This document shows, one piece after another, positions 30,355 to 57,811 of a DNA stretch of 64,000 bases. Made by a program: the position numbers and the translations under genes. Source of the DNA: Seiridium cupressi (Eukaryota; Ascomycota; Sordariomycetes; Amphisphaeriales; Sporocadaceae); NCBI GenBank assembly GCA_036674765.1, contig JARVKI010000009.1:62001-126000 (forward strand), in the 5' to 3' direction. The notes under the pieces were generated by a model that worked only from the letters and a program-made list of their open reading frames with translations, made no database searches and was not told the DNA's origin. Every line of letters starts with the position of its first letter. The first letter of the stretch is position 1.

Positions 30355-33138
30355 ATGAAGCCATTTACTACTGCGTTGTGTGCCGCTTGGGCGGTTGGTG
30401 TCACTGCTGTTCAACCATGGCTAGATACTTCACTGCCATACGAGGAACGGCTTCTTGCTTTCATTGCACAGCTCAACGATACTCAGAAGTATGCCATGGT
30501 CCAGGGCGATACTGTGGTAAGCTAACACTCTTTTCCGAACAGTAGGTCATATATATATATATATATATATATGTATCTGATAACTCGTAGTTGGATGATA
30601 ATGGTACCGGTGTAAACGCTGTAAGCAACTTCCAGGGTCATTTCATGCCCCGTATAGCCTGTTTTAGGAGCTTGCCGGTTCCTGATTTGGCGTTCCTGCT
30701 CTCAAAACTTGGTTTTTGATACCCGAAAACTCATTTAGCATGTTAGAAAAAGCAAAGACTGACTCCAGATGTTGTAGTGCATTGGTCACATTAGCGGTAA
30801 TGATACTCTCGGGATTCCAGCCATCTGCATGGGTGACGGTCCAGTGGGTGTCGGCAACTCCCTCGACAATGTTACCACATTCCCAGCTCCTGTTGCTGCA
30901 GCAAGCACGTGGAATACCTCTGTGCAGTATCTCTTTGGGCAGGCACTGGCGCAAGAGCATATGGGCAAAGGTCGGAACGTAGTCCTTGCGCCAACTATCA
31001 ACATTCTGCGCTCTCCGCTATGGGCTCGTGCTGCGGAGACGCTTTCAGAAGATCCCTGGCTGACGGCCCGCATGGCCGTCGCAGGTATCGAAGGAATCCA
31101 AAGCCAAGGTGCTCTGGCTTGTCCCAAGCATTTTGTCGCTTACAATCAGGATACAAATCGCTTCGGTCTCGACCCAGAGTGGGTGGCGATAGACGCTCAA
31201 GTCGATAAACGTGTTCTGCACGAGCTTTACTTCCCTGCTTTCAGGGCGTCTGTCCAGGAGGCTGATGCCGCTTCCATCATGTGCTCTTACAATAGGCTCA
31301 ATGGATATTTTACCTGCGAGAATGACTGGCTCTTGAACACTACCTTACGACAGGAATGGGGCTTCGAAGGTTTTGTCGTGGCGGACTGGTATTTCTCGAC
31401 CCGGAGCACTGTCGGTGCTGTTATGGCTGGTCTGGACATATCGATGCCTGGTGGAGATCTTACTGACGAGTATGGATTCCCAGCATACTACGGAGACTTG
31501 CTCGTCGAGGCTGTCAACAATGGTTCGATCCCACACTCTCGACTCGACGATATGGTTGAACGGGTGTGGAGATACATGTTCAAGCTAGGAATGGTGGACA
31601 ATCCCGTCACTGGAGCCTCGCTTTCTTACGTCCGGACCCAAGCTCATCTCGACCTCACGCAGCAGATGGCCGAAGACGGCACAGTTCTTCTCAAGAATGA
31701 GAACAGGACATTGCCCCTGGCTCCAGACAAGTATTCCAAGATTGCCGTCTTTGGCGTTGATGCGACCGACCAAAGCCAGGTCTCTGAGAATCATGGCGGG
31801 TTTGTCATCGATTCCACTCTGGTCATTCAAGCGCCTTTGGATGCACTCAAGCGTCGCGGTGTCGCGGACAACATCACTGTTGAATACGCAAAGGCGTACC
31901 CTGGCACTGGTCAATTTGCTACCATCCCATCCAGCATGTTTAAGGATGGGGGTGTAAATGTGACCTATTACACAAACACTGATTTCTCCGGCCCAGTAAA
32001 CAAGACAGATTTCGTCCCCAACATCACCATCGCCACTTTCCCCTCTGATCTCTGGCAAGCGTGGCCGCAAGTCTTTTCAGCAGACTATGAGGCAACTTTC
32101 CTGCCCAATACCACCGGTACATACCATTTCTCCATGTATGGCCAAGGCACTGCGCTGCTTCATATCAATGACGTGCTTGTGGCTAACATGTCATTTGCCA
32201 ACTTCGGAAATTACGTCCAGGGCATCGCGTATCTCGAGGCGGACACTGAGGTCAAACTCTCGCTCAAGTACCATATGGGCTACTCACTTTCCACTGGTGG
32301 CTACGGAGTGACCTTGGGCGTCAACGTCGGAAACCAAACGCGCGATGCGGAAGCTGATGCTCTAGCTGAGTGGGCCGACGTCAGCATCATTTTTGTTTCC
32401 GACAGACTATCAGAGGGCGCAGACAGCGGTCTCGGACTCTCGTTACCAGGAGATCAAGACGCATTAGTCGCGCGGCTCTCCAAGATATCGAAAAAGACTA
32501 TTGTCGTGCTGAACACCAACTCCGCCGTCCTGATGCCGTGGATCGACAGCGTAGGCGCCGTGCTCGAGGCTTGGTACGCCGGTCAACAGGTCGGGTTGGC
32601 GCTCGAAAGGCTTATGTTCGGTGATGTAAGCCCCAGTGGCAAGCTTCCCCTTACTTTCCCCAAGACACTGGAGGACACGATACAGATCAACTCCAACATT
32701 GACGTCCCATTCTCAGAAGGCCTGTATGTCGGCTATAAAGGCTACGACAAGAACGGTATTGAGCCATTGTTCCCTTTTGGTCACGGCTTGACGTATGCTG
32801 AGTTCTCCCTTCACTGCATGACTGTTTTCTCAAATGAGAGCGCTGTTATCGTCAAAGCTGCGCTGAAAAACGACGGTGCAGTCGATGCTAGGCAGGTAGT
32901 ACAGCTGTATGTCGGGTATCCAGAAGAAGCAGACGAGCCGCCCAAATTACTGAGGGCATTCGAAAAGGTGGAGGTTCCTGCGGGTGGGAGTATGTTAGTT
33001 GAATTAGTGGTCAAGACAGAAGATTTGATGGTGTGGAGTGAGGCGAGCCAGGGATGGGCGTTTGTCAACGGGACGTATGACTTCATGTTGGGCTTCTCTG
33101 CTGGCGATATCCAGTTGAACCAGAGTCTAGAGCTGTAG
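30355..33138 (+). CDS. secreted GH3 beta-glucosidase with PA14 domain
   Basis: Three exons: 30355-30516, 30591-30620 and 30778-33138; 850 aa. Residues 1-18 are a signal peptide (MKPFTTALCAAWAVGVTA). The N-terminal GH3 barrel contains GDGPVGVGNSLDN, APTINILRSPLWARA, CPKHFVAYNQDTNR, and the nucleophile Asp267 in GFVVADW. A PA14 domain follows at about 455-580 (VNVTYYTNTDFSGP ... TGTYHFSMYGQG). The C-terminal GH3 domain carries the likely acid/base Glu610 in SEGAD, LSLPGDQDALV, and PFGHGLTYAEFS before a fibronectin-III-like end. Many N-glycosylation sequons fit secretion. It should release glucose from beta-glucosides. Exon 2 is only 30 bp. Intron 1 holds an (AT)12 repeat, and intron 2 is the introner-like copy described below. 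Confidence 0.95.
30549..30572. repeat. (AT)12 microsatellite in GH3 intron 1
   Basis: A pure AT dinucleotide run inside the 74-bp first intron of the beta-glucosidase gene. It is likely length-variable between strains. Confidence 0.95.
30621..30777 (+). repeat. introner-like element, copy A (GH3 intron 2)
   Basis: This 157-bp intron starts GTAAGCAACTTCC and ends with a CTGAC branch-like site and TTGTAG. It joins codons GVNA to CIGHISG in phase 0. It matches the intron at 56272-56431 over its whole length (about 80% by eye, mostly transitions plus a 3-bp gap), while the exons on either side are unrelated. It is about three times longer than most introns here (usually 47-65 bp). The match ends exactly at the splice sites, which is diagnostic of introner-like elements rather than of gene duplication. 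Confidence 0.8.
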
Positions 33139-56158: not shown

Positions 56159-57120
56159 ATGGTTGGTCAATTGACGGAGAAGGAGCTGATGGCTCGGCGC
56201 CGTAGAAAATATCTGCGAACCAAACATCCAACGGGATGCACGGATGAGGACCGCGCAAAAGCGGTTAACCAGTAAGCAACTTCCGTAGTTATTTCATGCC
56301 CTGTATAGCCTGTTATGGGAGTTTACCAGTTCCTGGTTCAGCATTTCTACTCTTGAAACATGGTTTCCAACTCCCGACAACTCATTAAACATGTTAGAAG
56401 AAGAAGCAAAGACTAACTCGAGATGCTGCAGTGCCATATATCAGGGCACGAAACAACCCCAATGGCTTATAGATGTAAGAGAATCAATTTCCTCGAGAAA
56501 AGTCATCCCATTCCCTTCCACCACGTTCTCATCTCACTTTGGGGCGTTTTGAATTTTCGGGTGTTGTACCTAAATGCATACAGGCCACGAAAACTCACGC
56601 GAGCACATCTATCCAGCCCTCCCTAAAGCGAGGCACCACTTATCCAGATCAACCTGCCCCAAAGAATAACAAGAGACAAAGAACAAATGACGGGGCTACC
56701 AGCTCATCTATTGCCAGCGCAGAGGATCATGATGACGATAGAGGAAGCAGCCCCTTTACCTTCAGAACCAACATGGCTGGCATCCGACTTGTCGCGACGA
56801 CAAGGCATATAACCGACTCGCCTGTTTCTGCGCAACGTTCAAACAAACGGCGGCGCGCGCTTACTGTAGCCGACACATACCATTGCAACACCAGTTTAGA
56901 GTCATGCCAGCAACTTACACCGCCCGGAACAAAGTCCACCTCTGTGGAAGGGGTGGCAGATGAGCAGCACGAAACAGCTGATCTTGTGGCTCGGTTGGAG
57001 GCGGAGTTAAGTGGCAGGCTTGATTTAGTTGGTTTCGCTAGAAGATTGGAAAGTCCAGCATTGAGCAAAGCTTCCTTTGTGGAAGATGAGGAGGTCGAGA
57101 AAGATGTACAGCTTGCGTAG
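56159..57120 (+). CDS. unknown basic protein carrying an introner-like intron
   Basis: Three exons: 56159-56271, 56432-56474, 56584-57120; 230 aa with coherent phases. Exon 1 encodes a basic start (MVGQLTEKELMARRRRKYLR) and exon 2 a short linker (AIYQGTKQPQWLID). Exon 3 encodes a Ser/Thr-rich region with nuclear-localisation-like clusters (KNNKRQR, SNKRRRALT) and an acidic helical C-terminus (ADLVARLEAELSGRLDLVGF). I do not recognise the family; a nuclear protein is plausible. Intron 1 is the introner-like copy B and intron 2 is a 109-bp GTAAGA...CAG intron. The 3' end overlaps the convergent J-domain gene by about 80 bp. That the frames fit across both introns supports a real gene. Confidence 0.5.
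56272..56431 (+). repeat. introner-like element, copy B
   Basis: A 160-bp intron from GTAAGCAACTTCC to CTGCAG, with a CTAAC branch-like site 21-25 bp from its end. It corresponds along its whole length to the GH3 intron at 30621-30777, including the blocks TTTCATGCCC, GTATAGCCTGTT, CATGTTAGAA and AAGCAAAGACT. It separates codons in phase 2. The host genes share no similarity. Confidence 0.75.
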
Positions 57121-57365
57121 GAACTACAACTATCGACTGGTACAATCTTATATTCAGACCTACCTGGAAGCACATCGAATGCCTCCTGAACCCGAATAAA
57201 GTTTTCGTGCGCATTGGGATCGTTGAGAGCCTTGTCGGGATGATATTTGAGGCACAACTGCCTATAGGCGGTCTTGATCGATTCAGAACTGGCACCCGGC
57301 TTCAGCCCGAGGGTTGAATAACACTCGGCCGTAGTCAACTTGGAAATTGGTCTCCTGTCTGGCAT
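57038..57365 (-). CDS. small J-domain (DnaJ-like) protein
   Basis: Exon 1 (57164-57365) encodes a complete J-domain: LTTAECYSTLGLKPGASSES, then RQLCLKYHPDKA with the HPD triplet at 42-44, then NFIRVQEAFDVL. The start is the ATG at 57365. A donor GTAGGT follows VLP. The best in-frame continuation is 57038-57123 after a 40-bp intron, giving about 95 aa, but this intron is short and the second exon is uncharacteristic. Reading through instead gives a longer, antisense-looking tail. J-domains stimulate Hsp70 ATPase. The 3' part overlaps the convergent gene at 56159-57120. It may be truncated compared with a functional co-chaperone. Confidence 0.55.
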
Positions 57366-57539
57366 GATCAATCAAGTATGACTTCGTTTTATATCTATAA
57401 AACCAATGGAAATTTGGAACCCGAGACTGACTGCAAGGGGATGGACCATGGTTCTTAGGCTTTTACGGTCAAGTGTTGGGGACAACAAGATTGTTAAAAT
57501 AATTCGTATTCACCCAAACAATGAGATGTGTTTAATATG

Positions 57540-57663
57540 TGTCACGTGGTGTATGGTGGGATAAGGGATAAAGAACAGTTGTAGCACGAAGTGCCGCAAC
57601 TATTCTTTAGCCTGTTCTCATTAAGTATGAACCTAATCCTTTGTCTACATGAAACCCTTGACA
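57540..57663. mobile_element. solo-LTR-like repeat, copy 1
   Basis: A 124-bp unit begins TGTCACGTGG and ends CCCTTGACA, so it has TG...CA ends with 5-bp inverted termini as in LTRs. It is bounded on both sides by the pentamer ATATG (57535-57539 and 57664-57668), a perfect 5-bp target-site duplication. No internal retrotransposon genes are nearby, so a solo LTR or a very small non-autonomous element is likely. Confidence 0.65.
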
Positions 57664-57687
57664 ATATGGGATATATCACGTAGTGTC

Positions 57688-57811
57688 TGTCACGTGGTGT
57701 ATGGTAGGATGAGGGATAAAGAACAGTTGTAACACGAAGTGCTACAATTACTCTCTAGCCCGTTCTTGTTAAGTATGTATCTAATCCTTTGTCTATGTGA
57801 AGCCCTTGACA
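57688..57811. mobile_element. solo-LTR-like repeat, copy 2
   Basis: Same length and same ends as copy 1, in the same orientation, 24 bp downstream. By eye it differs at 16 positions, 15 of them transitions in both directions, as expected from repeat-induced point mutation. Flanking pentamers (GTGTC and CTTGC) do not match, so its duplication is lost or it arose differently. Confidence 0.6.

Follow-up and report, generated by a model that had tools for sequence, protein, structure and literature searches.

A probable family of recently active introner-like elements with an H^TG target site in Seiridium cupressi

Introduction

The window analysed here is a stretch of 64,000 nucleotides (nt) from the ascomycete Seiridium cupressi (assembly GCA_036674765.1, contig JARVKI010000009.1, positions 62,001 to 126,000). 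It contains a GH3 beta-glucosidase gene whose second intron recurs about 25 kb away as the first intron of a small, unrelated gene. How did the same intron come to reside in two unrelated genes? The explanation that best accounts for our results is that these ≈157-nt units are complete spliceosomal introns, members of a family of introner-like elements (ILEs) that has been active recently and copies itself into exons; taken as a whole, we consider this explanation rather probable. Its core, namely the combination of GT–AG ends, insertion shown to be seamless in the cases open to checking, a mostly sense location in coding sequence, targeting of H^TG sites (the caret marks the insertion point) and recent copying, is very likely to hold jointly.

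The two copies in the window

An earlier note on this DNA had described the two introns as homologous from donor to acceptor and roughly 80% identical by eye. Indeed, the alignment covers both introns completely, from the donor GT to the acceptor AG (157 and 160 nt), and an independent repeat search paired 30621–30752 with 56272–56403 at 79% identity without gaps. The branch-point motifs named in the note are also present, CTGAC in copy 1 and CTAAC in copy 2. The further statement that the similarity stops at the splice sites was only partly correct: the alignment does end there, but TGC follows both copies. The TG motif at the target site is a point absent from the earlier note.

Conceptual splicing of the GH3 gene yields a coding sequence for 850 amino acids (aa). 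The protein is 96% identical to a protein of Seiridium cardinale (Sporocadaceae, Amphisphaeriales, Xylariomycetidae according to the taxonomy dump), and S. cardinale P0001, also of 850 aa, is identical around the junction. Copy 1 is inserted at GCT^TGC, where an Ala codon meets a Cys codon, and the Cys was found in all six homologues compared. When both of its introns are conceptually spliced, the second host gene encodes 230 aa and matches S. cardinale P0121 (230 aa) at 86% identity, gap-free across both introns. These comparisons support the removal of both window copies as introns. An Rfam scan of the window gave no match at the gathering score, and a comparison of the GH3 protein with the PDB added nothing. 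Coordinates are listed in Table 1.

A genome-wide family of complete introns

The genome (45.36 Mb in 228 contigs) was searched with copy 1 by blastn, which gave 41 matches, and with patterns derived from the two ends of the element. The 3′-end pattern occurred at 65 places and the 5′-end pattern at 102 (100 of them listed), while the reversed patterns occurred nowhere, which excludes chance similarity. From an initial 98 candidates, 40 of which were scored, the analysis was extended to 109 loci, in which copies were located with a hidden Markov model (HMM) built from 31 aligned copies. At a cut-off of 40 bits, the HMM returned 107 distinct rows, comprising 99 complete copies and eight partial rows; the latter correspond to seven partial copies (L059 gives two rows) and were kept outside the 99. 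A further 19 rows below 40 bits were dropped, among them several that are self-matches on the reverse strand or decayed relatives. The copy count is a lower bound; one more known place, at C2:167188-167342, lies outside the examined loci. Some of the analyses below use a set of 67 copies, obtained with a stricter cut.

All 99 complete copies begin with GT and end with AG. They are 137–160 nt long, and 54 of them are exactly 157 nt. Variants among the partial copies include a GC donor (L089), a shifted acceptor (L082), a lost acceptor (L085) and an internal deletion (L059). The earlier note had proposed an introner-like family, and these dispersed copies bear it out; matches that were mostly intergenic and not bounded by GT/AG would have spoken against it, and what was found is 99 of 99 GT...AG units, 88 of them in an open sense frame.

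The note had also suggested that the family is active or recently active. Copies L072 and L081, which lie in different genes with different flanks, are 99.4% identical, and L075 and L072, likewise with differing flanks, are 97.5% identical. The near-identity of L072 and L081 indicates that copying was recent. Such near-identical copies also suggest that differences in presence and absence between strains should exist, in which case insertion could be studied in progress. Across the family, the median divergence from the consensus is 11.5%, and the mean pairwise identity is 79%. Repeat-induced point mutation left no clear signature, with C>T changes at 11.6% for CA, 11.7% for CG, 6.1% for CC and 7.4% for CT.

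At the other end of the range, L097, L101 and L104 (below 40 bits) and the partial copies L103 and L108 show similarity confined to the 5′ part of the element or slightly beyond, and we read them as decayed relatives. Separately, we observed strongly diverged introns with partial similarity at L104, L097, L060:267, L044 (second match) and L023:363, of which L104 and L044 keep AG-TG as judged by eye. Some ordinary introns may thus be decayed introners. Two introners were also seen only 20 nt apart (L006:1501-1655 and 1676-1833; C66:230181-230513), implying a tiny exon between them.

The target site

The sequence flanking the copies follows a strong and asymmetric rule. On the 3′ side, the base at +1 is T in 97 of the 99 copies and G in two, and the base at +2 is G in 89, A in eight and C in two. 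TG directly follows the acceptor in 88/99 copies, compared to an expectation of 6.6% from long open reading frames (ORFs). The 5′ side is less constrained: position −1 is occupied by A in 61 copies, T in 21, C in 15 and G in two, C is found at −2 in 65, and CA precedes the donor in 43. The full motif CATG occurs in 40/99, against 0.47% expected from long ORFs. Among the 88 TG sites, A is enriched at −1 (58/88, 27% expected) and G is nearly lacking (2/88, 21% expected). The commonest combination of bases on either side of the junction is A^T. The difference between the two sides is significant for both −1 A versus +1 T (P = 3e-11) and −2 C versus +2 G (P = 6e-5). The insertion target is thus H^TG, at best CA^TG, with a far stricter requirement on the 3′ than on the 5′ side. 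The TG rule is present in both large subfamilies (54/60 and 22/26).

The rule is reflected in the residues at the junction. In 52 of the 67 copies, for which the frame was clear, the phase 0 insertions stand at Cys (14), Trp (9) or Tyr (3) and the phase 1 insertions at Met (16) or Leu (2), with eight mixed phase 2 cases.

Several other origins of the motif were considered. Selection for splicing would be expected to affect ordinary introns as well, but in a set of 25 script-predicted introns without RNA support the rule is absent (+1 T in 5/25, −1 G in 11/25). Microhomology of variable length with the donor flank is not supported either, because the preferences are not nested (+4 G in 14/40 copies with +3 C, and in 26/59 otherwise). 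CACTA-type transposons have the ends CACTA...TAGTG, and the 3′ end of the element together with the TG, GTTGTAGTG, prompted a comparison with them. However, the TG is ancestral coding sequence where this was checked (the GH3 Cys and 11/13 HET sites, see below), CA precedes the donor in just 43/99 copies, and no duplication was found, so this origin was rejected.

Seamless insertion

Empty sites were recognized for a copy in a HET gene (L014), where the joined flanks match 13 other genomic places straight through the insertion point. In 12 of these 13 the length is equal, and the remaining one is gapped elsewhere. These places are unannotated and some may be pseudogenes. Most conform to TGG.T.GA.AC.^TGCTG.AT.GACAA, and 11/13 have TG immediately after the site, so that the TG after the acceptor most likely pre-dates the insertion. 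The existence of 13 uninterrupted paralogous places implies that the ancestral site was itself uninterrupted and that nothing was duplicated upon insertion. In a second host, encoding bleomycin hydrolase (L016), the spliced protein aligns without gaps to yeast Gal6 across the junction.

We also looked for target site duplications (TSDs) of 2–4 nt, using 36 offset pairs for each length and shuffled flank pairs for comparison, and found no clear excess; the best 4-nt case occurred in 3/99 copies, with 0.6 expected. Where it could be checked, insertion is therefore seamless, with no base lost or duplicated, and splicing restores the original codon.

Coding context and sense orientation

For most copies, the evidence points to a sense location within coding exons of mostly unrelated hosts. 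The sense frame is open for 60 nt on either side of the junction in 88/99 copies, compared to 64/99 for the antisense frame and 67% for random nearby sites. Shifting the junction by one or two bases reduces the number of open frames to 69 and 74 of 99, respectively. At ±195 nt, 30 sense and 6 antisense frames of the 99 remain open. For the set of 67 copies, which have long flanks, the best frame after splicing has a median length of 603 nt in sense and 237 nt in antisense, with the sense frame being the longer in 57/67; the frame medians at random unspliced nearby sites were 363 and 225 nt.

A simple codon score, which is weak on 120-nt pieces, preferred the sense strand for the joined flanks in 84/99 copies, including 22/22 of the high-scoring ones. 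With the flanks scored apart, both sides were called sense in 57/99, and in 46 of these 57 they share the same frame after splicing. The frames are likewise open across the junction in the partial copies L082, with its shifted CAG acceptor, and L089, with its GC donor.

Of 60 spliced peptides, 20 were picked for their conserved look and compared with Pfam. A Pfam domain spans the junction in 17/20 (9/10 and 8/10 in the two sets), which supports splicing of these copies, although in L071 it passes the junction by just three residues. In the other three, one NUDIX domain begins past the junction and two peptides have no family. HET genes and fungal-rhodopsin genes account for two of the tested copies each. 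The L071 host resembles a PolQ-like helicase (POLQ_helical slightly below the cut-off, DUF7898 above it). In the available text of PMC8469720, a non-sister stwintron is reported in a HelQ gene of Hypoxylaceae.

Inverted repeats and folding

The elements carry near-terminal inverted repeats, CAACTTCCAGAGT at the 5′ end and ACTCCAG(A/G)TGTTG at the 3′ end (ACTCCAGATGTTG in copy 1). In register, 76% of the cells are paired, compared to 30–43% in slid registers, and 10 of the 13 register positions pair in 84–97% of copies. In copy 1, the 3′ repeat lies between the branch point and the acceptor and overlaps the branch A. The outermost bases of the element, GTAAG and CTA, are not inverted repeats of each other. 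The common hairpin for which the earlier note had proposed to look exists as hairpin-like terminal pairing, but the pairing is imperfect.

Predicted folding is modestly more stable than that of shuffled sequences and of ordinary introns. The mean z-score of the minimum free energy (MFE) was −1.29 for the 99 copies and +0.28 for the 25 predicted ordinary introns, and fell below −2 in 23/99 copies. A terminal stem was predicted in 79/99 copies and 10/25 ordinary introns. The reverse complement folds about equally well, and the covariation found by RNAalifold was negligible (−0.85 kcal/mol, with two-sided changes in 2/28 pairs). The predicted fold is thus a weak argument.

Mechanism of insertion

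An RNA intermediate is favoured by the lack of duplication, the bias towards genes and the sense strand, ends that are mostly complete, and the asymmetry of the target. We consider the chances about even that what moves is the intron RNA itself after its excision. By this route, the RNA would be inserted into the DNA of transcribed genes, either by reverse splicing into single-stranded DNA or through capture where the DNA is nicked or broken, and would then be copied into DNA. The strict 3′ junction would be made first, by a TG-preferring step, and the near-terminal repeats may serve to keep the intron ends together. We also raise, tentatively, the possibility of a separate intron-inserting activity with its own specificity, neither plain spliceosomal reverse splicing nor a duplication-leaving transposase, that would act in sense, seamlessly and at H^TG.

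A number of observations weigh against this explanation, the first of them against the RNA route. The preferred site differs from the AG^G of simple spliceosomal reverse splicing, with G before the donor nearly excluded, and the inverted repeats, together with a target (CA^TG) that is in part a palindrome, would be compatible with a transposase. In the terminal pairing, three of the 13 register positions are mostly unpaired (paired in 3%, 22% and 35% of copies), and by eye the youngest subfamily shows no better pairing. Proof of empty sites comes from a single gene family (paralogues in the same genome), because a paralogue search of the genome with a P450 host (L045) matched only itself. As to gene context, at least one flank scores as antisense in 42/99 copies, and 11/99 fail the ±60-nt frame test, although these include the proven GH3 copy, which has another intron 30 nt upstream. 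Finally, L068 and, among the partial copies, L085 appear to lie outside coding sequence, so that insertion may not be strictly confined to genes; L064 is ambiguous in this respect.

The main rival is a non-autonomous, MITE-like (miniature inverted-repeat transposable element) DNA transposon that inserts at CA^TG without duplicating its target and whose ends happen to coincide with splice sites. The paired inverted repeats (CAACTTC..GAGT and ACTC..GATGTTG) and the partly palindromic target are what such an element would have, and Spy (PHIS) transposons are described in the available part of PMC4482050 as leaving no target duplication and preferring a short palindromic target, AAATTT. We nevertheless consider this explanation unlikely. 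The target here is asymmetric (−1 A in 61 and +1 T in 97 of 99), which argues against a symmetric transposase site in either orientation; the extreme ends are not inverted repeats; and the genic sense bias speaks against it as well. No long autonomous element was seen among all 65 3′-end and the 100 listed 5′-end matches, with the 3′ ends of L101, L103 and L108 not identified within the 557 nt examined and transposase genes not searched for; unlike Spy, the family has no autonomous partner in view. A rolling-circle or single-strand DNA element of the Helitron type is far less plausible still. Helitrons insert between A and T and have the ends TC...CTRR. The frequent A^T junction and the lack of a TSD would agree with this, but the ends here are different, and neither the G at +2 nor the short, fixed, intron-shaped unit is explained.

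The absence of any mobility, with the copies arising by gene duplication, intron gene conversion or chance, is hardly credible and is refuted for the family as a whole: although HET and fungal-rhodopsin genes both host more than one tested copy, there are at least 99 copies, mostly in unrelated genes with differing flanks and phases, and none of the 13 places paralogous to the HET site has the intron. The Xylariales belong to the same subclass as Seiridium, and descent from their [D1,2] sister stwintrons, or membership among them (as a cropped sister intron, for instance), is accordingly worth weighing, but it is improbable. As far as the available text of PMC12403724 and PMC8469720 goes, the sister stwintrons and cropped sister introns of Hypoxylaceae and Xylariaceae resemble the present family in being seamless, sense-strand insertions without TSD in related fungi; canonical cropped sister introns also spread, and near-terminal repeats lie by the donor and between branch point and acceptor in both. 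However, there is no twin intron here, the G that stwintrons need directly before GT was seen in 2/99 copies, and the published 5′ repeat, GUAUAAAAAC, does not occur in the family consensus. The most recent sister stwintrons are described with fully complementary near-terminal repeats of 10 nt, whereas those here are imperfect, and their insertion sites are reported as random and without bias, which, compared by description only, differs from the strong target motif found here.

Relation to known introners and significance

Fungal introners are already established, and the kind of element is therefore known. The available text of PMC8469720 cites van der Burgt 2012 for a preference of Capnodiales ILEs for AG/GY sites, and also cites inverted repeats or stable folds for fungal ILEs; Collemare 2015 (PMC4457414), as far as available, extends the Capnodiales ILEs. 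Like these, the present family consists of canonical introns that occur in many copies and at new positions, exceed ordinary introns in length, are seamlessly inserted and are accompanied by decayed older relatives. It differs in being from another order and, compared by description only, in its H^TG site: the AG/GY preference is not followed here, with G at −1 and at +1 in 2/99 copies each. Similarity over the full width of the intron and a bias to genes are shared with the introners of Gozashti et al. 2022 (PMC9860276), to the extent described in the accessible part of that paper; set beside them, the present family has near-terminal repeats that are imperfect, lacks a TSD and is flanked by a fixed motif.

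In the open-licence literature, we found no description of a family that follows a strong H^TG rule, of any family in Amphisphaeriales, or of introners in Seiridium, Pestalotiopsis or relatives. The suggestion in the earlier note that the family is undescribed in this lineage is thus weakly tested.

How fungal introners insert is an unsolved question. The literature, in the parts available, reports insertion without duplication and, for Xylariales, without any preference of sequence, leaving little to test. The near-absolute TG rule, the preference for A and the near-ban on G before the donor, found in 99 copies, limit the candidate mechanisms and predict where new introns can arise. If the proposed activity with its own specificity exists, new introns would favour Met codons, which they would interrupt, and Cys and Trp codons, which they would precede, and some older introns of the lineage may be decayed insertions.

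Features of the window and other repeats

Table 1. Coordinates of the two introner copies, their parts and their host genes in the window.
Feature	Position	Strand	Remarks
Introner copy 1, GH3 intron 2	30621..30777	+	157 nt, phase 0, GTAAGC...TTGTAG
5′ near-terminal inverted repeat, copy 1	30626..30638	+	given as family consensus in text
3′ near-terminal inverted repeat, copy 1	30762..30774	+	given in text
Branch-point-like CTGAC, copy 1	30759..30763	+	read from sequence
Target TG right after acceptor, copy 1	30778..30779	+	start of Cys codon
Host gene 1, GH3 beta-glucosidase	30355..33138	+	exons 30355-30516, 30591-30620, 30778-33138
Ordinary intron 1 of GH3 gene	30517-30590	+	
Introner copy 2, intron 1 of small unrelated gene	56272..56431	+	160 nt, phase 2, site CA^TG
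Branch-point-like CTAAC, copy 2	56413-56417	+	read from sequence
Target TG after acceptor, copy 2	56432-56433	+	read from sequence
Host gene 2, protein without assigned function	56159..57120	+	230 aa; limits read from sequence
Host gene 2 exons	56159-56271, 56432-56474, 56584-57120	+	

An all-against-all comparison of the examined loci with the introners masked, leaving out the overlapping loci L001, L041, L055 and L058, gave three other matches (L036/L057, L010/window and L014/L018), none of which was judged to be an intron. A different repeat of ≈150 bp, 98% identical between two contigs, is present on opposite strands at L036:3783-3933 and L057:3912-4062.

In the window, an ORF on the minus strand at 56727-57371 overlaps the 3′ end of host gene 2 and resembles, by eye, the start of a J-domain (DnaJ-like) protein. 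Further downstream, 57533-57663 and 57681-57811 form a tandem pair of 131-nt repeats that are 85% identical, and a stretch of 73% similarity occurs at L010:17-134; this is probably a dispersed repeat and not an introner.
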